Of a stretch of 40,422 nt of DNA, positions 12,681 to 32,905 are shown piece by piece. The notes beneath the pieces are model-generated. The model had not been told where the DNA came from. It made no database searches and worked only from the letters and a program-made list of their open reading frames with translations. The translations under genes were made by a program, and so were the position numbers. Position 1 is the stretch's first letter, and each line of letters starts with the position of its first letter. Location: assembly GCA_947505205.1 (NCBI GenBank), contig CANNKD010000007.1, positions 1 to 40,422 on the forward strand, given 5' to 3'. This stretch comes from Bacteroidota bacterium. Its GTDB lineage: Bacteria > Bacteroidota > Bacteroidia > Bacteroidales > F082.

Positions 12681-13898
12681 ATGAAATACTTTAAATTAGA
12701 AGATAACTTATTCGATATCACCGAGAGGTACCCTCAAACACTTCCGGTGTTTATCAGCAACGGTTTTACGCAACTTGCAGACGAAGAAAAACGTTCAACT
12801 TTTGGCCGGGCGTTGCAGTTAAATATTGCGATAATGATGCGTCAGATTGATCAGGATAGTTTTATTTTAGCTCTTGAAGGATCCATTAACGGCAGCAACA
12901 GCGAAAAGCGCGATGAAAATACCGTTTATGTAAAAGGTCTTTTGCCTTGCCCGGTGCGCCTTCCATTACAGGAAACTTTTGATGAGGTAATCGGGATTAA
13001 AGCTGCTCAGGGAATAAAAATCAAAGCCGAATTAAAAGCGGCTTCCATGGGTTTGGATTGGATAAAGGAAGAAGTAGCTAAAGCCAATGATATCAGTCAG
13101 TTGGATGATATTTATATCTCAGCTGGCTTTGACATGTTTTTCGATAAAGAATATTTTGGAAGATTTATTGAAACGAAGGAATTCTCAGATCCAATCGGTT
13201 GGGATTCCATTAATAAAGACTTTCATAATGATTATATCAATTTGAAGGATCCTCATAATCGTTATGGAATTATCGCTGTCGTCTCGGCAGTATTTTTAGT
13301 AAATTCTGAAGTGCTGGACGGTCGGCCTGTTCCACAATCGTGGAAAGAATTGCTTGATCCGATGTACAAAAGAAGTGTTAGTTTACCAGTTTCTGATTTT
13401 GATTTATTCAACGCAATTTTACTCACCATCGATAACAATTATGGTCGTGACGCTGTTCGCGCTTTGGGTAGAAATATGTTAACAAGTCTGCATCCTGCGC
13501 AGATGGTGAAATCGGATCGTCAAAAAACGAATAAACCAGCCATCACGATCATGCCCTATTTCTTCACAAAAATGGTGAAAGAAGGAAGTGTAATGAAAGC
13601 AATCTGGCCAAAAGACGGAGCAATCATCAGTCCGATTTTTATGATTGGAAAAAACTCTAATAATCAACATATCAAAGAAATAGCAGATATTGTAGCCAGT
13701 GAAAAAGTGGCAACAATTTTGGCACATCAGGGATTGTTTCCCAGTCTTCATCCAAATATTGATAATCGTTTGCCTGAAGGTGCAACATTTCTTTGGCTTG
13801 GATGGGATTATATTGAAGCGCATGATTTGAATAGTAAATTCGCCGAATGTAATGCAGCATTCAACGAAAATCCTTATGTTGAAATACAAAAAATATGA
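12681..13898 (+). CDS. Leaderless substrate-binding protein with N-terminal DUF1858-like domain
   Basis: Protein of 405 residues whose body is a type 2 periplasmic-binding-protein fold of the iron/polyamine class: AVFLVNSEVLDGRPVPQSW then KELLDPMYKRSVSLP (about 206-236) corresponds to the hinge region of such proteins, and GIIAVVSAVF precedes it. Unlike transport binding proteins it has no signal peptide, lipobox or transmembrane helix; instead residues 1-65 (LFDITERYPQTLPVFISNGF) look like a DUF1858 domain. It should therefore work in the cytoplasm. The stop codon overlaps the start of the GTPase gene (ATGA), so the two are translationally coupled. The ligand is unknown; a metal, oxyanion or cofactor is plausible. 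Confidence 0.75.
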   Translation: MKYFKLEDNLFDITERYPQTLPVFISNGFTQLADEEKRSTFGRALQLNIAIMMRQIDQDSFILALEGSINGSNSEKRDENTVYVKGLLPCPVRLPLQETFDEVIGIKAAQGIKIKAELKAASMGLDWIKEEVAKANDISQLDDIYISAGFDMFFDKEYFGRFIETKEFSDPIGWDSINKDFHNDYINLKDPHNRYGIIAVVSAVFLVNSEVLDGRPVPQSWKELLDPMYKRSVSLPVSDFDLFNAILLTIDNNYGRDAVRALGRNMLTSLHPAQMVKSDRQKTNKPAITIMPYFFTKMVKEGSVMKAIWPKDGAIISPIFMIGKNSNNQHIKEIADIVASEKVATILAHQGLFPSLHPNIDNRLPEGATFLWLGWDYIEAHDLNSKFAECNAAFNENPYVEIQKI

Positions 13899-14596
13899 AT
13901 TTAATTACTGTTTCCGGGCCGCCATCATCCGGAAAAACTGCAATTATTATCAAAACAGCCGAAACGTTTATGCGACGGGGTGTTAAACTTGGAGCCGTGA
14001 AGTTCGATTGTCTTCATACGGATGATGATGTCGCTTATGAAAAAGCAGGTATTCCTGTAAAAAAAGGTCTTTCAGGCTCACTTTGTCCAGATCATTATTT
14101 TGTGAGTAATATTGAAGCGGTACTCGCCTGGGGTTTAAAGGAAGGATTTGATTTGCTTGTTTCAGAAAGTGCCGGATTGTGTAACCGTTGCTCACCATAT
14201 ATTAAAGAAATTAAGGCTGTTTGTGTTATCGACAACCTAAGTGGAATCAATACACCCAAAAAGATTGGTCCGATGCTTCGTATGGCCGACATTGTTGTGA
14301 TTACAAAAGGCGATATCGTTTCCCAGGCCGAACGTGAAGTGTTTGCTGCCCGCGTTCATTCAGTAAATCCTGCTGCTATCATTATGCATATCAATGGATT
14401 AACAGGACAAGGTGCATACGAATTAGGAACGCTTTTGTTTGATGAAACCAAACATATTGATTCATTAAAGGGCCGTAAACTTCGTTTTTCGATGCCTTCA
14501 GCCCTGTGTTCCTATTGTTTAGGTGAGACTCGCATTGGTGAGTCTTATCAAATGGGAAATGTTCGAAAAATTAACCTTGAAGAAAACCAAGCATGA
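13895..14596 (+). CDS. HypB/CobW-like P-loop GTPase with cysteine pairs
   Basis: Protein of 233 residues of the SIMIBI class. Walker A is GPPSSGKT (8-15), a switch-like VSESAGLC segment follows an LLV strand (88-96), and TKGD (137-140) occupies the place of the NKxD guanine-specificity motif. The ESAGLCNRCS (C96, C99) and ALCSYC (C205, C208) pairs plus Cys64 look like metal or Fe-S ligands. HypB and UreG relatives use GTP hydrolysis to insert nickel, which suggests a metallochaperone role. It overlaps both neighbours by 4 bases (ATGA), so SBP, GTPase and ATPase are produced together. No close family is recognised. Confidence 0.72.
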   Translation: MNLITVSGPPSSGKTAIIIKTAETFMRRGVKLGAVKFDCLHTDDDVAYEKAGIPVKKGLSGSLCPDHYFVSNIEAVLAWGLKEGFDLLVSESAGLCNRCSPYIKEIKAVCVIDNLSGINTPKKIGPMLRMADIVVITKGDIVSQAEREVFAARVHSVNPAAIIMHINGLTGQGAYELGTLLFDETKHIDSLKGRKLRFSMPSALCSYCLGETRIGESYQMGNVRKINLEENQA

Positions 14597-15603
14597 TAAG
14601 TCAGGAATATCTTTTAATGACAAGCCCGAAAGAACTCATCGGCCGGTTTCCGTATTTACAAACGTTCTTTGCAGGAATCACACTCAAACTAGATGATAAG
14701 CAGGAATTACCTCTGCAGCTGATAATTGCAGAGGTTAGTGAAGAAATTGCTGAAGATAATAGTTTTGATGGCGAACATTTTATAAAGCAATTGCAGGAAT
14801 TTATACATCAAATGCAATCGTTTTTGGGTGACGAGAATAATCAGGTTGATAGCCTGACAATTCTTCCGGGAACCGACAAAAGCGGTGATGCTGAACAATT
14901 TGGCGTATTGGTTTTTGAAAAAAGTACGATTACGAGTATTGTAGGTCCGACAGGATCCGGTAAAAGTAGGTTATTGGCTGATATTGAGTGGGTTGCACAA
15001 GGAGACACACCAACGGGAAGATCGATACTCATCAATGGCGAAAAACCAGCCTCTGACTGGCGTTTTGCTTCCGGAAAAAAACTTGTGGCTCAGCTCTCAC
15101 AAAACATGAATTTCGTGATGGATCTTACAGTCGCCGAATTCATCGAGTTGCATGCTGAAAGCCGTATGGTTACTGATGTTGAGCATATTGTTTCGAAAAT
15201 CATTGATGCTGCAAACGAATTGGCCGGAGAGAAATTTCAACCTTCAACGCCCATCACTTCATTGAGTGGTGGACAATCACGTGCCTTGATGATTGCAGAC
15301 ACCGCCATGTTGAGTAGCAGTCCTGTTGTTTTAATCGACGAAATTGAAAATGCAGGTATTGACAGGAAAAAGGCTTTACAATTACTTGTCGGTGAAGAAA
15401 AAATAGTTTTGATGGCAACGCATGATCCAATATTGGCTTTGATGGCGCACCAAAGAATTGTTATCAAAAATGGAGGAATTCACCGAGTTATCAAAACCAG
15501 TCCTGAAGAAAAAGCCATGCTTAAAGACCTTGAAGAAGCCGATGGAATACTTCAGCAATTGCGCACCCGTTTGCGTTCTGGAGAAGAACTTCATATTAAT
15601 TAG
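14593..15603 (+). CDS. ABC-type ATPase with N-terminal DUF1858-like segment, no membrane partner
   Basis: Protein of 336 residues with one nucleotide-binding domain: Walker A GPTGSGKS (118-125), Q-loop region around 167-170, signature LSGGQ (224-228), Walker B VVLIDE (245-250) and H-loop His277. Residues 1-80 form an extra domain whose SPKELIGRFPYLQTFFAGI resembles the DUF1858-like start of the binding protein at 12681-13898, implying related partners. It has no transmembrane helix and no permease gene is adjacent on this strand. It could power conformational change in a soluble complex, as AtwA-like or SufC-like ATPases do. Start chosen at the ATGA overlap with the GTPase gene. Confidence 0.75.
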   Translation: MISQEYLLMTSPKELIGRFPYLQTFFAGITLKLDDKQELPLQLIIAEVSEEIAEDNSFDGEHFIKQLQEFIHQMQSFLGDENNQVDSLTILPGTDKSGDAEQFGVLVFEKSTITSIVGPTGSGKSRLLADIEWVAQGDTPTGRSILINGEKPASDWRFASGKKLVAQLSQNMNFVMDLTVAEFIELHAESRMVTDVEHIVSKIIDAANELAGEKFQPSTPITSLSGGQSRALMIADTAMLSSSPVVLIDEIENAGIDRKKALQLLVGEEKIVLMATHDPILALMAHQRIVIKNGGIHRVIKTSPEEKAMLKDLEEADGILQQLRTRLRSGEELHIN

Positions 15604-24391: not shown

Positions 24392-25090
24392 ATGATGTTT
24401 TTTGCAGAAAAACCTGTTGATGAAAAATTATTAAATCATTTTTTGCAGTTTTTGACAGATGCACGTCGTGCAAAATTTGAGGAGGTTTTGTCGTTTCGAA
24501 CAAGACATATTACCGTTGTGCTTGAAGACATATTTCAGTCGCAGAATGCGAGTGCTGTTTTACGAACTTGTGATTTAACAGGTATTTCAGATGTTTATAT
24601 CATTGAAAACAAATACCGATATGAAGTAAATCCGGATGTGGCACTTGGAAGTTCCAAATGGTTAAATCTCAAGAAATTTAACCATTCAAATCAAAATTCG
24701 GAACAGGCAATTGACCATTTAAAAGAAAAAGGTTATCAAATTGTGGCAACAAGTCCACATAATCATAATCATTCTCCTGAGGATATTCCTTTAGATAAAC
24801 CCATTGCCTTGTTTTTTGGAACGGAAAAACTCGGTCTTTCAAAAGTGGTGTTGGATAATGCAGATTCGTTTATCAGAATACCAATGTACGGATTTACCGA
24901 GAGTTATAATATTAGTGTTTCAGCGGCACTATTGCTTTACACGTTGACCCAGCGTTTGCATAAAACGGATTTTGAATGGAAATTACCCGAAAATGATTTT
25001 AAAAATATGTTGCTTGATTGGTGTCGAAAATCTGTTCCAAAATCTGACCTGATCGAAAATGAATTTAACCGTGTAAATCGGAATCATTAA
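24392..25090 (+). CDS. trmH: tRNA (guanosine-18)-2'-O-methyltransferase TrmH (SpoU family)
   Basis: Methylates the ribose of G18 in the tRNA D-loop using S-adenosylmethionine. The 232-residue protein has the TrmH N-terminus (RTRHITVVLEDIFQSQNASAVLRTCD, about 30-55) and the deep-trefoil-knot SAM site: ALFFGTEKLGLS (motif 2, about 138-149) and IPMYGFTESYNISVSAALLLYTL (motif 3, about 166-188). The C-terminal helix with WCRKSVPKS is also typical. Its 3' end overlaps the convergent murD gene by 26 bases. TrmH versus another SpoU member is likely but not certain. Confidence 0.88.
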   Translation: MMFFAEKPVDEKLLNHFLQFLTDARRAKFEEVLSFRTRHITVVLEDIFQSQNASAVLRTCDLTGISDVYIIENKYRYEVNPDVALGSSKWLNLKKFNHSNQNSEQAIDHLKEKGYQIVATSPHNHNHSPEDIPLDKPIALFFGTEKLGLSKVVLDNADSFIRIPMYGFTESYNISVSAALLLYTLTQRLHKTDFEWKLPENDFKNMLLDWCRKSVPKSDLIENEFNRVNRNH

Positions 25091-26372
25091 CGAAGTTTAT
25101 CGCCAATTCCCGAAAAATGTCACCTCGATGTTCAAAGTTTTTATAGATATCATAACTTGCTGCAGCAGGTGATAGCAGACAAATATCTTTTGGTTGAGCA
25201 AATTTTTGAACTATTGTGAAAGCGTCTTGCATGGTATCATAGGTAAGAAGTTTACTTTCTGTTGTGTATTTCAAAAGCATTTTCATCATTCGAATACCGG
25301 CTTTACCTGTAAAAAGAATGTGTTTTATCTGATAATCAATAAGATATTCAATTAAAATGGTGTAATCGATTCCACGGTCGAAACCGCCTAACAAAAGAAA
25401 ATCAACGTGTTCGAGTGTGTCAATGGCAGCTATTGTCGCTTCAGGAATGGTTGCTATGCTGTCATTATAAAAAGTAACACCGCCAAAAATTCCGATTTTT
25501 TCCAAACGGTGAGGCAAGCCATTAAATGTTACCAGATCTTGAATTGCTTTTTCCATATTGACACCAGCTGCGTGCACGGCCAGCAACGCAGCCTCCATAT
25601 TCAGCCGGTTGTGCGAACCTTTTAATGGTAGATTTTCGGCCGATTCGTTCAATAAGCCCAATGGAAATTGAAGCAGTAATTCAGGATAATTCATATTTAA
25701 GGGTAGAAATTCCCGATGGCAAATAAAAATATCGTCTTTTTTTTGATACTTACAGATTGTGTTCTTCGCCTCTTTATACTTTAAAAAAGTTCCGAAATGA
25801 TCCAAATGTTCCTCAAAAATATTTAACAGAATGGCGATATGTGGAGAGTGATTGCAATTTTGTAGTTGATTAGCTGAAAGTTCGAAAACAATCCAAGTTT
25901 TGTTAGTGATCTCAGGAATGACATCAAAACACGGAATACCAATATTACCGGCTAAAACGCAATCAAAATTACTGGATTTGAGTAGGTGATAAATTAAACT
26001 TGTAGTGGTACTTTTACCTTTTGTGCCTGTTATTCCAATGGTTTGTGAGGCAAATGCATTAAAAAAAAGATCAGTTTGTGAACTGATTATTGTTTTACTC
26101 AAATCAAAACCCAATAAAGAAATGCCGGGTGATTTTATCACGATGTCATAGTTGTGGATCACATTAAGATAATTTTCACCACAATAAAAATTTATTGATT
26201 CCCGCTGAGCGGGTATCAAGCTTTCGACTGTTTCTGGATTATAATCGGCGATATCAGGTTTATTATCAGGTAGATATGTTTGAATAAATTTCAGACTTGA
26301 TTTTCCTTCGCGGCCAAAACCAAGAATCAAAATTCTCTTTTCTTTCAGTATTTCGATAATTTTACTCAGCAT
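25065..26372 (-). CDS. murD: MurD-type UDP-N-acetylmuramoyl-L-alanine:glutamate ligase (MurD2 type)
   Basis: Mur ligase that adds glutamate to UDP-MurNAc-L-Ala in the cytoplasm. With the start at 26372 the protein has 435 residues. Seen: a Rossmann-like start (RILILGFGREGKSS), P-loop GITGTKGKSTTTSL (113-126), central FEEHLDHFG with the ATP/metal residues, and the C-terminal RLEKIGIFGGVTFYNDSIATIPEA. The frame is open upstream to 26591, but that part is inside murL; ATG 26372 overlaps the murL stop by 11 bases, so expression is coupled. Next to MurL, it is expected to be of MurD2 type and to use L-glutamate. It overlaps trmH by 26 bases at the 3' end. Confidence 0.88.
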   Translation of the reverse strand: MLSKIIEILKEKRILILGFGREGKSSLKFIQTYLPDNKPDIADYNPETVESLIPAQRESINFYCGENYLNVIHNYDIVIKSPGISLLGFDLSKTIISSQTDLFFNAFASQTIGITGTKGKSTTTSLIYHLLKSSNFDCVLAGNIGIPCFDVIPEITNKTWIVFELSANQLQNCNHSPHIAILLNIFEEHLDHFGTFLKYKEAKNTICKYQKKDDIFICHREFLPLNMNYPELLLQFPLGLLNESAENLPLKGSHNRLNMEAALLAVHAAGVNMEKAIQDLVTFNGLPHRLEKIGIFGGVTFYNDSIATIPEATIAAIDTLEHVDFLLLGGFDRGIDYTILIEYLIDYQIKHILFTGKAGIRMMKMLLKYTTESKLLTYDTMQDAFTIVQKFAQPKDICLLSPAAASYDIYKNFEHRGDIFRELAINFVNDSDLHG

Positions 26373-27792
26373 GAATGGCAGTTTTAATAATTTCTTCAAA
26401 CTCAGGCAATAGAAAATGCTGATGATCGAAACTTTGTAAGAGCATATTAATCTCAATTGCAACAGATTGATCAACAACAATATGACTAAATAATGCCGAA
26501 TGTTGAATAGAAGGATTTTTGACAAGAAGCGATTGAATGGCGACTTCAACTTCCTGCACTGTTCCAACGCATTCAAAAGGTTTTGTTTCACTTAAGCCGC
26601 GTAACTCGTTCAAAATTGGTTTAAGTGATTCAATATCAGGAATATGTATGCCGAATATTTCGTCAAGGCTTTTCATCGGTTGAAAGGGCGAGAGCATCAA
26701 AAACGTGAATAAGCATTTCGGACAGTTACAACACCAACTATCGGTTTTACTACCTACATTGCAACTTCGAAAAGTGCTGAAATATTGATGGTTATGGCTA
26801 AAAAGTTTCCCGATTTGTAGTTCATTAAGTGGTCGAAGTAAACTGAAATAATTGAGATATGGATGCAAATATTCCTTTGAGTAGTTCCTGAAATCACTCT
26901 CAAATTCAAAAGATTTACTGTATTGGTGATTGATATTTGTGTTCGCCACAGTGGCTTCATTGGCACTTGATTCGTTTGAAAGCGCAATATATTTCGCCCC
27001 GCACAATACCGCTGAAAAGGCTGCCAGAAAAGCCAATAAAGATGAAAATGGGGTGTGTCCGTTTAAGAAGCCTTCACTGTTTAGTTTCAACAAAAGTGGA
27101 TCGATGGTTCTATGAATGATCATGCAATCATTAAATGAAAATCCTGCCATTTGCGCAGTTTTTGTTGTGGCTTCGCGTGGATTTACAATGAATGGAATGA
27201 TCGGTAACTTGTTGGATTTGAGTAATTCTAAACTAACAATTGAGTCCTTTCCGCCACCAATTGGGACTAGAATTAAATCAGAAAGTGGTACGCCTGATGA
27301 AACGGGAATTTGATCAGAATCTGATTTCAGTTGCATAAAATCGTCCAGATTCGTTTCAATGTTATTCAAATAAAAAAACTCACCTAAGCCATTGAAATAC
27401 AATTTTTTCCACCAATTTATCTGATTATCTGTAAGGTGAAATGGGTTGATAATTACTGTTTTGGGGCATGCACATTTCCAGTAACTGATTAATTCAACCA
27501 TGCCAATATGGAAAACGAATAATTCAATATCATCTTTTGAAAGCTTCTTCATGTCGAAAAAGACACGAGAAGGAATGCTGATTTCCGGTTGAAAAATATG
27601 GGTATCAGACAGATTAAATAAATATTTTATCCTGATCTGCTCTTTTTCATGCAGGATAGTATAACTTTGATAAATCAAAAATGGAAAACGAAAACGTAAC
27701 TGATTGAATTTTTGAGTGTTATTAGAAGTCGTCAAAATAGGAAGATATTGAGTTTCGGCAGCAAAAGTAACGAATAATAGAGAATGGAACAT
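26362..27792 (-). CDS. murL: MurL, UDP-MurNAc-L-alanyl-L-glutamate epimerase
   Basis: Converts the terminal L-Glu of UDP-MurNAc-L-Ala-L-Glu to D-Glu, replacing the MurI racemase route. The 476-residue protein carries the ATP-pyrophosphatase-like GGGKDSIVSLE motif (about 179-189), YIALSNESSANEATV with NINHQYSKSFEFE (about 270-300), and the NCPKC zinc-type knuckle near residue 355, all as in the MurL family first shown in Xanthomonas. It overlaps murD by 11 bases, as in that pathway. ATG 27792 is the only in-frame ATG before residue 80, but a -7 box inside the coding frame (27762-27769) leaves the start uncertain; TTG 27735 is an alternative. Confidence 0.85.
   Translation of the reverse strand: MFHSLLFVTFAAETQYLPILTTSNNTQKFNQLRFRFPFLIYQSYTILHEKEQIRIKYLFNLSDTHIFQPEISIPSRVFFDMKKLSKDDIELFVFHIGMVELISYWKCACPKTVIINPFHLTDNQINWWKKLYFNGLGEFFYLNNIETNLDDFMQLKSDSDQIPVSSGVPLSDLILVPIGGGKDSIVSLELLKSNKLPIIPFIVNPREATTKTAQMAGFSFNDCMIIHRTIDPLLLKLNSEGFLNGHTPFSSLLAFLAAFSAVLCGAKYIALSNESSANEATVANTNINHQYSKSFEFESDFRNYSKEYLHPYLNYFSLLRPLNELQIGKLFSHNHQYFSTFRSCNVGSKTDSWCCNCPKCLFTFLMLSPFQPMKSLDEIFGIHIPDIESLKPILNELRGLSETKPFECVGTVQEVEVAIQSLLVKNPSIQHSALFSHIVVDQSVAIEINMLLQSFDHQHFLLPEFEEIIKTAIHAE
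27762..27769 (-). promoter_or_regulatory. -7 promoter box within the 5' end of murL
   Basis: Minus-strand TACTTTTG fits TAnnTTTG but lies downstream of the only early in-frame ATG (27792). A start of transcription near 27755 would require a non-ATG start codon such as TTG 27735. A good -33 is absent. Confidence 0.4.
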
Positions 27793-27808
27793 TGGAAAAA
27801 GGTTGAAA

Positions 27809-28396
27809 ATGGATATTGAAAAACTGCTTACAATCAAAAGAAACGATCTTGCTCCACAAAAAGGGCGGTTGTTACTTTCTGAACCCTTTTTAAACGATTT
27901 TTATTTCGGTCGTTCAGTTGTTTTGTTGATAGATCACGAGCCAGATGGTTCATTTGGGTTGATAATGAATAAGCCTGTGAATGAATCATTTAACAATATT
28001 GTTACTGATTTCCCACCCTTTGAGGCTTCGGTTTATTTTGGCGGACCGGTAAAAGCAGAAAGTATGTTTATTTTACATACACTTGGAGATCTGGTAGATG
28101 GAAGTATCGAAGTTTTGAATGGTTTATTTTGGGGCGGTGATGTAGAGATGATTAAGGAGCAGGTTTTATTGGGTAAAATCCAACCAGGTCAAATAAGGTT
28201 TTTCATGGGTTACGCTGGTTGGGAACCTAAACAATTGGAAATGGAACTTGAACGCAATGCATGGGTAGTGGCTAAAACGAGTATTGGTGATTTGCTCGAA
28301 ACTGCACACGATAAAATGTGGTCAAAATACGTGGCTCAATTAGGCTCACCCTACGAATTATGGGATCGTTTTCCAATCAATCCGGAAATGAATTGA
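27809..28396 (+). CDS. YqgE/AlgH family protein
   Basis: Protein of 195 residues of the UPF0301 family. Diagnostic segments are APQKGRLLLSEPFLNDFYFGRSVVLLIDHEPDGSFGLIMNKP near residues 15-56 and VYFGGPVKAESMFILHTLG near 74-92, then FMGYAGWEPKQLEMELERNAWVV (about 133-155). The molecular function of the family is unsettled; in Pseudomonas AlgH affects alginate control, but no such gene is nearby. The start is ATG 27809, 6 bases after a TTG that extends the frame. Its ATG is only 16 bases from the divergent murL ATG, so the two share or overlap control regions. Confidence 0.92.
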   Translation: MDIEKLLTIKRNDLAPQKGRLLLSEPFLNDFYFGRSVVLLIDHEPDGSFGLIMNKPVNESFNNIVTDFPPFEASVYFGGPVKAESMFILHTLGDLVDGSIEVLNGLFWGGDVEMIKEQVLLGKIQPGQIRFFMGYAGWEPKQLEMELERNAWVVAKTSIGDLLETAHDKMWSKYVAQLGSPYELWDRFPINPEMN

Positions 28397-29968: not shown

Positions 29969-32905
29969 TCACTTTAAAATCGTGAGTGACTCAAGCTTTA
30001 TGGCTTGATAAAACATCTCATGAATTTTCGTTCTGGTATCTAACTTACTCAATAACTGATTGGTAGCACTCGGATTTATTCTGTTCGATAGAAAAACGAA
30101 AATCAAATCGTTCTCTGGATCAGCCCAGGCAAAAGTGCCGGTGAATCCTGAATGTCCAAAACTTAATGATGAAGCCGACAATGCAGGCATTCTGGGTTCA
30201 TTGGCATTCAGTGGTGGTTTGTCGAACCCAATTCCACGCCGGTTTTTTTTGGAGGTGAAAGGTGCAGTGGTAAATTTCTGAATCGTTTCAGGTTCAAAAA
30301 TCCTGACACCGTTATATATCCCTTTGTTCAAAATCAATTGCATGATTACAGCGACTTCCGTGGCATTTGAGAATAAGCCAGCATGACCTGAAATACCTCC
30401 CAAAAGCGCGGCTCCGTAGTCATGAACGTCACCTTGTAACAGCTGATGTCGAAATTCCAGATCATTTTCGGTTGGAATAATTCTTTCTTTACTTAAATTA
30501 ATCAATGGCCTGAAACAGGTCAATTTTAACCCAAGAGGTTGATAAATCGTTTCATCCAAATATTGATCGAATTTCTTATTTGTCACCAATTCAACAATTT
30601 CGGGAATAAAATAAAATCCCAAATCGCTATAGCGGTATTCCTTGGATTTTAATTTGCTTTCTGCAATTTGTTTAAAGATTTCATTTTTGTAAGTCCTTGT
30701 GATATAAAGGTTTTCCGCAACCCGAAACGGATGATTCTCATCAATTATATCACTGTAAAGTTTAGGGTCGGGGCCAGCTTCGTTAAATGTTTTTAGATAG
30801 AAAGGAATCCAGCCGTCCAATCCGGATTGATGTGTCATGAGATCGATAATCTTCAAAGCAGATTTGTTAGTTCCTATCAAATAAGGTAGGAATTTTCCCA
30901 AGCTATCTTCAAGTCGGATCTTCTTTTCTTCATATAGCTTCATGATACACAATGTAGAAGCTAACATTTTTGTTAACGAAGCGAGATCATATAAATCTGA
31001 ATTTTTTACTGAATCCATCTTGTCGTAAGTATGAAATCCGAATGATTTATTATAAATGACTTCGCCATGTTGTAGCGCAACAATCTGACAGCCTGGATAA
31101 GCCTTCTTTTCGATACCTTCAAGTGCAAATGAATCCACTTTTCGTAGATAAACATCGTTTATTTTGATAATTGGAACGTAAGATTGAATAGAATCATTTA
31201 TCGGGCAAACAATGCCTGTTCCAGTTTGGAAATTGGAATTAATTCCAACGGGTAAATGTCCTTTTGCAATGACTTTACCACATAAAATATCTGCTGTAAT
31301 TTTTTCGGTAATTGTATTGTCCTGATATGCAATCAGAATCGATTTATAGTTGCTATTAATATTGAAAAGATTCAAAGCGTAGGGTGAGGCGAAAAGATTG
31401 AAGACAACCGGTTTCGATTTTGTCAATTCGTTTACAAAGCGAATTGCCTGATCTTCGATCCCGAACTTTTTAGCTGCCAGAATATTTGTGTTTTGGATGC
31501 TGATAATGATCAAATCGAAAGATGCCAATTCCTTTTTCAAGATTGATATTTTTGCTGCATCCGCCGCTTTTGGAAGCCGAAAGTGCGTGCAGTTCAATCC
31601 GTTAGCGGTTATTGTTTTTTGAAAATCATTTAATTTTGATTCTCCAACAGCAAGTGTTGCGATTTTTATTTTCGCATTAGATTTCAGAGGCAACAGGCTG
31701 TCATTGTGAATCACAGTGATCGCATTTTCGAACAATTCATTTACAAGTTGTTGATATTCTGGTTTATGTAAATCAAGAATCAGGTTTTCGGTATCTATTG
31801 GTTTATAATGATTCAAACCTGCACGGTACTTAAATGTCAATATTTTACGACAGCTTTCTTCCAAACGATCATAGGATAATTGACCAGAATCAATGGCTAT
31901 TTTTATTTTTTGTATAGCTTTTGGAACGTCAGCCGGTAGCAGCAAAACATCATTTCCGGCCTGTAAGGCTTTTAATTCAATCAAACCCGAAGGAAATGAA
32001 TTTGTAACGCCTTTCATATCAAGTGCATCCGTGAAAATAAGTCCTTTGAATCCCATTTCTTCTTTCAATAATTTGGTAATGATATTGTGTGAAAGGGTAG
32101 AAGGTAGGTTTGGCGTTTCGGCCAAAGCCGGTACATTCAAATGTGCTACCATAATACCTTGGACATCATTTTGAATAAGTGATTGAAATGGAACTAATTC
32201 ATTTTCATTCAAGTGGTTACGATCTCCTGAAATGGTTGGTAGTGTTGCATGTGAATCGCTTTGGGTATCACCATGACCCGGAAAATGTTTGGCTGTTGCA
32301 ATGATTCCATTTTGTTGTAATGCCATTGCATATATTGACGCTTTTTTAGAAACTATGCATGGAACATCACCAAAACTTCGCATCCCAATAACCGGATTTG
32401 CCATATTGTTATTCACATCTACAACAGGTGCAAAATTTGATTGAATTCCCATCCGCTTGCATTGTTCAGCGATTTGTTTACCCATTTTGCTAATCAAACT
32501 ATCATTTTCGATAGCTCCTAAGGTCATTTGATAAGGATAAGAAATTGCATTTGTGAGTCTCATCCCCAAACCCCATTCACCATCGATTGTGATCAACAAT
32601 GGTGTTTTGGCTAAGGACTGCCATTGATTGGTTTTATTTGCCTGTTTTAAGATGTCGCTTTTGAAAAAGGTAATGCCACCAATATTGTATTTTTTGATGA
32701 ATTCAGTTACTTTTTCATCATAGTCTTCGCCTGATTGGTTGGCTCTCAAAACCATCAATTGCGCGATACGTTCCTCTGTTGATAAGCTTTTGTAAACCGA
32801 ATCGACCCAATGTATTTCATCTCTAAGTGGCTGAGATTGCGTATCCTTTTGTTTAACAACAAATAATATCAGGATTAAAAGAATATATTTTAGGAATGAT
32901 GTCAT
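29969..32905 (-). CDS. GH3 beta-N-acetylhexosaminidase fused to a class C beta-lactamase-like serine hydrolase
   Basis: Exported enzyme of 978 residues with a signal peptide (1-25). Residues 35-360 form a GH3 domain of NagZ type: KHFPGHGDTQSDSH (206-219, with the acid/base Asp-His loop) and FTDALDMKG with nucleophile Asp293. A GH3 C-terminal-like region follows (370-570). Residues 590-978 form a serine hydrolase of the beta-lactamase/transpeptidase fold with SLTK (Ser643, Lys646), YSD (759-761) and a late GHSGFTG box. Such fusions are common in Bacteroidota and are thought to act on muropeptides or glycopeptides in the periplasm: one half cleaves a sugar, the other a peptide or ester bond. 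Confidence 0.9.
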   Translation of the reverse strand: MTSFLKYILLILILFVVKQKDTQSQPLRDEIHWVDSVYKSLSTEERIAQLMVLRANQSGEDYDEKVTEFIKKYNIGGITFFKSDILKQANKTNQWQSLAKTPLLITIDGEWGLGMRLTNAISYPYQMTLGAIENDSLISKMGKQIAEQCKRMGIQSNFAPVVDVNNNMANPVIGMRSFGDVPCIVSKKASIYAMALQQNGIIATAKHFPGHGDTQSDSHATLPTISGDRNHLNENELVPFQSLIQNDVQGIMVAHLNVPALAETPNLPSTLSHNIITKLLKEEMGFKGLIFTDALDMKGVTNSFPSGLIELKALQAGNDVLLLPADVPKAIQKIKIAIDSGQLSYDRLEESCRKILTFKYRAGLNHYKPIDTENLILDLHKPEYQQLVNELFENAITVIHNDSLLPLKSNAKIKIATLAVGESKLNDFQKTITANGLNCTHFRLPKAADAAKISILKKELASFDLIIISIQNTNILAAKKFGIEDQAIRFVNELTKSKPVVFNLFASPYALNLFNINSNYKSILIAYQDNTITEKITADILCGKVIAKGHLPVGINSNFQTGTGIVCPINDSIQSYVPIIKINDVYLRKVDSFALEGIEKKAYPGCQIVALQHGEVIYNKSFGFHTYDKMDSVKNSDLYDLASLTKMLASTLCIMKLYEEKKIRLEDSLGKFLPYLIGTNKSALKIIDLMTHQSGLDGWIPFYLKTFNEAGPDPKLYSDIIDENHPFRVAENLYITRTYKNEIFKQIAESKLKSKEYRYSDLGFYFIPEIVELVTNKKFDQYLDETIYQPLGLKLTCFRPLINLSKERIIPTENDLEFRHQLLQGDVHDYGAALLGGISGHAGLFSNATEVAVIMQLILNKGIYNGVRIFEPETIQKFTTAPFTSKKNRRGIGFDKPPLNANEPRMPALSASSLSFGHSGFTGTFAWADPENDLIFVFLSNRINPSATNQLLSKLDTRTKIHEMFYQAIKLESLTILK

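Follow-up and report, generated by a model that had tools for sequence, protein, structure and literature searches.

A MurL–MurD2 gene pair as probable main source of D-glutamate in a Bacteroidales genome, and reduction of the canonical MurD to its C-terminal domain in relatives

We analyzed a stretch of 40,422 nucleotides (hereafter the window), which is contig 7 of the genome of a bacterium of the phylum Bacteroidota, order Bacteroidales (3.49 Mb in 288 contigs, 95.4% complete), and in particular 2 overlapping genes, murL and murD, encoding a homologue of MurL and a MurD2-type ligase. The joint best explanation of the results, in which we have high confidence, is that this pair is the main source of D-glutamate (D-Glu) for peptidoglycan in this organism, and that the C-terminal domain of the canonical MurD encoded in the division and cell wall (dcw) cluster would have a second, non-catalytic role. 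By analogy with Xanthomonas work as told in reviews, MurD2 would add L-glutamate (L-Glu) to the cell-wall precursor, and MurL would then invert the precursor-bound L-Glu to the D form. According to the reviews, this route was reportedly discovered by Feng et al. in 2017 and 2019.

The murL and murD genes of the window

The features of the pair are listed below.

26362 to 27792, minus strand: murL, with its ATG at 27792 and a TAA stop ending at 26362 (476 amino acids [aa])
25065 to 26372, minus strand: murD (MurD2-type ligase), with its ATG at 26372 and its stop ending at 25065 (435 aa)
26362 to 26372, minus strand: 11 bases in which the stop of murL overlaps the start of murD, ATGCTGAGTAA, read directly from the sequence
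27241 to 27258, minus strand: GGGKDS, the PP-loop adenosine triphosphate (ATP) motif of MurL, residues 179-184, counterpart of SGGxDS of QueC
26947 to 26976, minus strand: NESSANEATV, conserved MurL motif, residues 273-282, coordinates checked
26713 to 26763, minus strand: C(x)9CxxCxxC of MurL (Cys344, Cys354, Cys357, and Cys360), likely counterpart of the QueC zinc motif C(x)8CxxCxxC
within 26713 to 26763, minus strand: NCPKC, MurL residues 356-360, inside the C(x)9CxxCxxC stretch
26007 to 26027, minus strand: GTKGKST, ATP loop of the ligase, where canonical MurD has G[ST]NGK
25809 to 25811, minus strand: Glu of the ligase at the site of E. coli Asp182 and Xanthomonas MurD2 Glu197, placed by alignment, coordinates checked
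25374 to 25376, minus strand: Arg of the ligase at the site of E. coli Lys348 and Xanthomonas MurD2 Arg358, placed by alignment, coordinates checked

The 11-base overlap, exact and between 2 genes of the minus strand, and the 3 MurL motifs GGGKDS, NESSANEATV, and NCPKC had been reported in the initial annotation, and all of them were found in place. Longer open reading frames (ORFs) of 508 and 491 aa with GTG or TTG starts are upstream extensions.

The ligase carries the MurD2 signature

The ligase of the window scores 305.5 bits against TIGR01087, above the cut-off of 211.95. In Xanthomonas MurD2, Glu197 and Arg358 stand at the sites of Asp182 and Lys348 of E. coli MurD, and reverting both is reported to yield a D-Glu ligase (PMC8788868). 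We looked at these sites in 58 aligned MurDs from the order, 30 MurL-linked and 28 canonical, together with E. coli MurD. Of the canonical sequences, 10 came from genomes with MurI and 18 from MurL lineages; among the latter was placed G009, which has no MurL match and whose MurD2 runs off the end of a contig; 3 of the 32 full-length canonical MurD loci (G040, G049, and G023) had been excluded by an ORF filter before these counts and those of the internal methionine described below.

Results showed that the Asp182 site is Glu in 30/30 MurL-linked MurDs, the window included, and Asp in 28/28 canonical ones. The Lys348 site is Arg in all 28 MurL-linked MurDs that have sequence there (2 of the 30 have none), again including the window, and Lys in 28/28 canonical ones, while the ATP-loop site is Lys in 30/30 and Asn in 28/28, respectively. 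In a tree of 64 sequences, the MurL-linked MurDs and the MurD2 of X. sacchari, the one Xanthomonas sequence included, form a clade (34 tips, support 0.977) apart from the canonical MurDs; the window ligase shares 26.9% identity with X. sacchari MurD2 over 487 columns. The assignment of the window ligase to the MurD2 (L-Glu) type is thus well supported by its switch residues and its clade.

MurL has a predicted QatC/QueC-like fold

MurL of the window matches the NCBIfam model NF041275 (E = 5e-72, 242.8 bits, profile positions 21-408 of 447) and is 33.5% identical to X. sacchari MurL over 325 aa. The latter scores 836.5 bits on this model, which is a Xanthomonadales equivalog model with a cut-off of 700 bits; because the window protein stays below that value, we filed it as a MurL homologue and not as the Xanthomonadales equivalog. 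In an alignment of 25 MurLs (A1), GGGKDS is invariant throughout, as are 6 of the 10 positions of NESSANEATV and 3 of the 5 of NCPKC. The 4 cysteines are also invariant in 25/25, the first spacing being 9 residues in 24 sequences and 10 in one.

We also modeled the window protein with AlphaFold2 (predicted local distance difference test [pLDDT] 87.7). The best structural match was QatC (VIA Z 19.2 over 320 residues, root mean square deviation 3.4; Foldseek E = 1.6e-4), followed by QueC (VIA Z 13.7 and 13.1) and Cap9 (12.6), with other PP-loop ATPases at 9.3 or below. MurL is thus predicted to have a QatC/QueC-like fold. No Pfam family matched at E ≤ 0.001, hence no match to PF06508, and a profile search of the PDB with MurL returned no QueC up to E = 10, its matches to PP-loop sulphur enzymes being short and having E-values of 0.011 or worse; the kinship of MurL with QueC therefore rests on the predicted fold and on motifs. 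The hallmark motifs of the QueC family are SGGxDS and C(x)8CxxCxxC (PMC13329287), and MurL has them as the variants GGGKDS and C(x)9CxxCxxC, with x10 in one of 25 sequences and x15 in X. sacchari, so that the cysteine match is a loose one.

In the QueC family (QueC, Cap9, and QatC), we find a likeness to MurL in predicted fold and, through variant forms only, in the ATP and cysteine motifs, while MurL differs by its substrate, a peptide glutamate, and by the lack of a Pfam match at the above threshold. Adenylation of the alpha-carboxylate, with formation of adenosine monophosphate, has been proposed for MurL (PMC8788868, PMC5808125). ATP-driven carboxylate activation is plausibly a theme common to QueC and, as a proposal, to MurL, and the modeled fold would fit the proposed adenylation. 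The term MurL is absent from the QueC-family survey (PMC13329287) and from the QatC structure paper (PMC13279940). MurL homologues without an exact GGGKDS were also seen on 2 Pseudonocardia plasmids (L164:4797-6197 and L165:4004-5398).

MurL and MurD2 are linked and sometimes fused

A scan of genome contigs confirmed at least 581 relatives, and the best 80 of these were kept as named loci, among which are rumen and gut records. A MurD-type ORF adjoins MurL or is fused to it in 79 of the 80 named loci and in 29 of 30 loci examined among the 42 relatives with MurL; the exception among the 30, L042, ends at a contig edge. The murL–murD order is identical in X. sacchari, where the ends of the genes overlap as well.

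Fusions were found in each set. By open-frame length, single MurL–MurD2 frames of 880-949 aa are present in 8 of the 42 MurL-positive relatives, and the motifs of both halves were read in 6 of them. Among the 97 MurL-positive genomes of the order sample described below, 4 have single frames of 885-949 aa, the contig also giving a MurD C-terminal match in a frame of equal length, and 3 of the 80 named loci have frames of 901-996 aa.

MurL and MurI do not occur together in the order sample

We searched the window genome for the usual sources of D-Glu. Profile searches found no Asp/Glu racemase (PF01177) and no MurI (TIGR00067) there, and no MurI was found in 3 other genomes of the same genus either. 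The window genome, the only one searched for this function, holds 2 PF01063 proteins. One of them scores above cut-off as a branched-chain aminotransferase (424.4 bits), and the other, of 212 aa, has lyase-like matches that are weak; neither scores above cut-off as a D-amino-acid transaminase.

Among 61 relatives, MurL is present in 42 (in G008 as a contig-end fragment only), and 17 have MurI above cut-off. The order was sampled evenly with 295 genomes, of which 97 have MurL and 179 have MurI at E ≤ 1e-20 (178 above cut-off), none has both, and 19 have neither (Fisher p = 4e-59, kinship being ignored). In a sample of 395 genomes of the phylum, mostly from other classes, MurL was found only in the genome of the window. 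The MurL route is thus a lineage trait and not an oddity. The initial annotation had proposed an epimerase route in place of D-Glu made by MurI, and this route is well supported by the lack of a MurI match in the window genome, by the L-Glu switch residues, and by the absence of any genome with both MurL and MurI among the 295. It had also called the occurrence in a Bacteroidota genome notable; the pair is no isolated case, considering 97 of 295 genomes of the order and at least 581 relatives.

Some other explanations were rejected. A MurI hidden by assembly gaps was set aside, as 4/4 genomes of the genus are without a match and 0/37 genomes of the family have one above cut-off. Weak racemase-like matches in relatives were not accepted as MurI, all those in family f1 scoring less than 64 bits where the cut-off is 146.65; in G005, a family member assembled as a single contig, the MurI-type matches reach at most 46.6 bits and are sub-threshold. 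A chance, one-off pairing of murL and murD is ruled out by the linkage in 29/30 and 79/80 loci and by the occurrence in 97/295 genomes.

Two observations concern genomes outside this pattern. The thresholds used gave neither MurL nor MurI in 19 of the 295 order genomes, where another D-Glu source or an assembly gap is likely. In G051 (98% complete), no MurL, MurI, or full-length MurD was found at these thresholds, perhaps owing to an assembly gap; the MurD counts of one scan, used for G051 among others, are lower bounds, as it scored 5 candidates per genome.

The canonical MurD is kept whole or trimmed to its C-terminal domain

Besides murD2, the genome of the window carries a canonical murD of full length (389 bits), which lies between mraY and ftsW in the dcw cluster and has the Asp/Lys signature. 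The check suggested with the initial annotation, a search of the full genome for murI and a second murD, thus gave a divided answer, in which no conventional murI was found and a second murD with the D-Glu signature was. This second gene is half of what the initial annotation had named as evidence against its reading, which is thus supported in part. In the order sample, a full-length canonical MurD is present in 55 of the 97 MurL-positive genomes, 53 by score plus G534 and G524, and was not detected in 42.

We then searched for remnants of the gene, using a profile of 11 truncated copies, in 48 genomes: 44 MurL genomes in which no full-length canonical MurD had been detected (the 42 of the order sample plus G007 and G018), together with G534, G524, G051, and G454. 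In G534 and G524, the full-length canonical MurDs are cut by the contig start and were not counted as stand-alone domains. Results showed that 37 of the 44 genomes, from 19 families, encode a stand-alone MurD C-terminal domain in an intact ORF of about 180 codons. Its neighbors are mraY and ftsW in 36 of these genomes, the contig of G041 having only the mraY end. The domain was not found in the other 7 (G018, G056, G506, G556, G587, G607, and G661); G018 and G056 are also without an mraY match above cut-off, so that the region may be missing from these assemblies. In total, 36 of the 97 MurL-positive genomes of the order hold only a trimmed dcw MurD. A stand-alone domain also lies between mraY and ftsW in G051 (L221:4549-5058).

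The ATP-binding central domain and the uridine diphosphate (UDP)-binding N-terminal domain are absent in 37/37 stand-alone copies, and the best copy matches TIGR01087 at positions 263-440 of 441. Among 38 copies (the 37 plus that of G051), all have retained Asp317, 37 the Trp of TWY, 37 that of IWI, and 34 His301, while Lys319 remains in 23 and Lys348 in 7. In 31 canonical MurDs, Asp317, Lys319, Lys348, and His301 are present in 31/31 and the second Trp in 26. The ratio of nonsynonymous to synonymous substitution rates (dN/dS) of the stand-alone domain was 0.061, 0.152, 0.054, and 0.077 in the 4 of 13 pairs that were unsaturated, against 0.031-0.214 for ftsW and 0.018-0.107 for mraY where measurable. 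By this measure, the stand-alone domain appears to be under purifying selection comparable to that on ftsW and weaker than that on mraY, and not in plain decay. The model of the highly diverged copy of G508 (pLDDT 80.4, the first 40 residues with low confidence) has as its best match MurD 7u35_C (Foldseek E = 1.4e-10).

Both trimmed and full-length forms occur in 9 families (f1, f4, f6, f13, f82, f90, f105, f128, and f149), and trimming has therefore probably been repeated, unless whole dcw genes were exchanged. A single-domain tree of the stand-alone forms gave 5 changes by Fitch parsimony, or 11 if irreversible, but it is noisy and was not relied on.

We also asked how the full-length copies evolve beside MurL. 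In 17 of 18 full-length MurDs of MurL lineages the checked motifs are intact, while G026 misses the ELSSFQL pattern. The ratio of divergence in the ligase half to that in the C-terminal half is 1.56 in MurL lineages (152 pairs) against 1.17 in 11 other genomes (55 pairs); at matched divergence it is 1.545 against 1.271 (0.3-0.5) and 1.196 (3 pairs) against 1.136 (0.5-0.7), the pairs not being independent. This faster divergence of the ligase half would be a mild shift in the expected direction and no proof. The murD/ftsW rate ratio is 0.60 in MurI-positive pairs and 1.37 in the 152 MurL-lineage pairs, which hints at murD evolving faster in MurL lineages, the 6 MurI-positive pairs being too few.

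A conserved methionine at the domain border

The start of each stand-alone gene was taken as the Met nearest the domain border. In 33 of 37 genes it falls on a single alignment column, and in the other 4 it lies one or two residues earlier. The same Met is invariant in 29/29 full-length canonical MurDs, of which 18 are from MurL lineages, 10 from MurI-positive genomes, and one from G454, a genome outside the order sample where a search for MurL found none. No other of the 448 columns is Met in 90% or more of the sequences, and its neighbors are conserved at 17-62% in the 6 positions before it and at 55-76% in the 4 after.

The 18 bases before the internal Met are A-rich (8.7 against 5.6 A, Wilcoxon p = 8e-5), and A content at -24 to -13 is 59% against 31%. 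The linker at this place is rich in Lys and Asn (34% against 15%), which accounts partly for the A-richness; among synonymous codons of Lys, Gln, and Glu before the Met, 56/62 end in A against 1561/2198, the genomes not being independent. An internal start that might yield a free C-terminal domain even from full-length genes would fit these patterns. In printed alignments, S. agalactiae has Met at this site, A. baumannii Ile, and E. coli Leu; since the site is hydrophobic in other phyla, the conserved Met may have a structural reason. We gave the internal start less weight because the linker is Lys/Asn-rich and because the MurD of S. agalactiae seems to have this Met as well.

Interpretation and alternative explanations

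The proposed course of events is the following. After ligation had passed to MurD2 and MurL, the ligase half of the canonical MurD would no longer have been under selection, and the dcw murD would then have been cut back repeatedly to its C-terminal domain, a Mur-ligase remnant serving as a structural part. That relatives which dropped the ligase part keep this domain alone suggests a second, non-catalytic role, which would explain why the canonical murD is kept in the window genome, where no MurI was found. This role could plausibly lie in a Mur enzyme complex at the membrane; MurG of T. maritima is cited as binding MurD, MurE, and MurF (PMC6420597). We lean slightly toward the more general idea that the dcw murD of Bacteroidales encodes a D-Glu ligase plus a separable non-catalytic C-terminal domain needed by the lipid II and division machinery, perhaps also as a free 20-kDa product of the internal start.

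Several observations weigh against the pair as main D-Glu source. The canonical MurD of the window persists with all checked catalytic motifs intact, and because it is full length, it leaves room for free D-Glu from an unseen source. The sites of Pro433 and Phe435 of Xanthomonas MurD2 are Ala and Tyr in the window ligase; mutating them left the specificity of the Xanthomonas enzyme unaltered (PMC8788868), so that we did not take them as defining MurD2. On the MurL side, the NF041275 cut-off of 700 bits is missed not only by the window protein but in all of the 61 relatives and 295 order genomes, and the first cysteine spacing is 9 in the window against 15 in X. sacchari. Linkage also has exceptions, as the next ORF at L146 is without a MurD motif and MurL and MurD2 are on different contigs in G037. 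Both Pseudonocardia plasmid homologues adjoin a convergent gene for a WD40-repeat protein and not MurD, and the MurL family may therefore have members outside peptidoglycan synthesis. Finally, DapF of Chlamydia is reported to act as a glutamate racemase (PMC5885031), and alternative sources of D-Glu thus exist.

This last point bears on the possibility of 2 parallel routes, in which the dcw MurD would join free D-Glu, from salvage of wall debris or from a promiscuous DapF-like enzyme, and the MurD2–MurL pair would only supplement it. The catalytic motifs kept in the dcw MurD of the window and in 16 of the 17 other full-length MurDs of MurL lineages (all but G026) speak for such an arrangement. 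We nevertheless consider it unlikely, since MurI is present in 0/97 MurL-positive order genomes, the window genome has no D-amino-acid transaminase above cut-off, and the dcw MurD is only a trimmed one in 36/97, genomes in which the MurD2–MurL pair must therefore suffice. It is also conceivable that the canonical murD is a passive leftover of the takeover, and the stand-alone domains are decaying pseudogenes that persist solely for operon spacing or to couple the translation of mraY and ftsW. The drift of catalytic residues in the stand-alone domains, with Lys348 in 7/38, would agree with this, as would their constraint, weaker than that of mraY (dN/dS 0.054-0.152 against 0.018-0.107), and the faster ligase half of MurL lineages (1.56 against 1.17). 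Decay would however hardly leave intact ORFs in 37 genomes of 19 families, all starting on, or no more than 2 codons from, a single site at the domain border, dN/dS values within the ftsW range, Asp317 in 38/38 and each of the 2 Trp in 37/38 copies, and a MurD-like predicted fold even in a highly diverged copy (its first 40 residues at low confidence), and we regard this explanation as quite improbable.

In a last alternative, the substrate of MurL would be a different one, as it is for QueC-family proteins, and MurD2 would be a mere second MurD. The WD40-linked plasmid homologues and the NF041275 score below cut-off could be read in this sense, but fusion with, and near-constant adjacency to, a MurD of L-Glu signature, together with the mutual exclusion with MurI, make it hardly credible. 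The MurD2–MurL pair as main source of D-Glu, with a second role for the C-terminal domain of the dcw MurD, thus remains our preferred explanation.

Genes around the pair

Two genes flank the pair directly.

27803 to 28396, plus strand: YqgE/AlgH family gene, divergent from murL (PF02622, E = 3.7e-42)
24392 to 25090, plus strand: SpoU/TrmH-type RNA methyltransferase gene (PF00588, E = 6.4e-32)

The 3' ends of murD2 (minus strand) and of the TrmH-type gene (plus strand) share 26 bases, 25065-25090. AlgH-like ORFs also lie beside murL in G005, G041, and G056 (ORFs compared by eye, L159-L161). As a by-eye lead, flanking genes for AlgH, a TrmH-type methyltransferase, and a rhomboid protein, and farther away TPR-like and formyltransferase-like ones, seem to recur partially in families f1, f4, f6, and f21. 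An Rfam scan found nothing, and scans for promoters (12 against 16.4 expected) and terminators (3 against 2.3 expected) were near chance. A few genes from murL, at 29969-32905, there is a 978-aa ORF in which, judging by eye, a glycoside hydrolase 3-like part precedes a beta-lactamase-like one, and 12681-15603 holds a cluster of a DUF1858-domain solute-binding protein, a CobW/HypB-type nucleotide-binding protein, and an ABC ATPase.

Discussion

The pair forms a new branch within a kind already known, and the repeated reduction of the dcw MurD is the part that specialists would not expect. MurD2 (XOO_1320) and MurL (XOO_1319) of Xanthomonas oryzae resemble the window pair in the L-Glu signature, the absence of MurI, and the MurL motifs, and the order and overlap of murL and murD are as in X. 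sacchari. The differences are the host, here a member of the Bacteroidota, the residues at sites 433 and 435, and the fusion of MurL and MurD2 in some relatives; moreover, Bacteroidales relatives keep the canonical MurD or its C-terminal domain in the dcw cluster, a comparison made on the Bacteroidales side only. With canonical MurD the window ligase has in common the three-domain architecture of Mur ligases, from which it departs as an L-Glu type, whereas the stand-alone domain matches MurD structures best and yet is without the ATPase and UDP-binding domains.

Published carriers of the MurL route are Gammaproteobacteria, Alphaproteobacteria, and rare actinobacteria, as far as the available text goes (PMC8788868), with low-similarity relatives noted in a fungus, cyanobacteria, and an amoeba (PMC5808125). 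In the literature found, whose coverage leaves out most subscription journals, there was no mention of Bacteroidota carriers, of MurL–MurD2 fusions, or of a stand-alone MurD C-terminal domain.

These results extend the epimerase route from some Proteobacteria and actinobacteria to about one third of the sampled genomes of a Bacteroidota order, where it is never found together with MurI, and they provide MurL with a predicted fold along with an active site that could plausibly adenylate. By keeping the C-terminal domain of MurD between mraY and ftsW, nature seems to have performed, repeatedly, a separation-of-function experiment on an essential enzyme, and a hidden non-enzymatic role of a Mur ligase thereby becomes directly testable.

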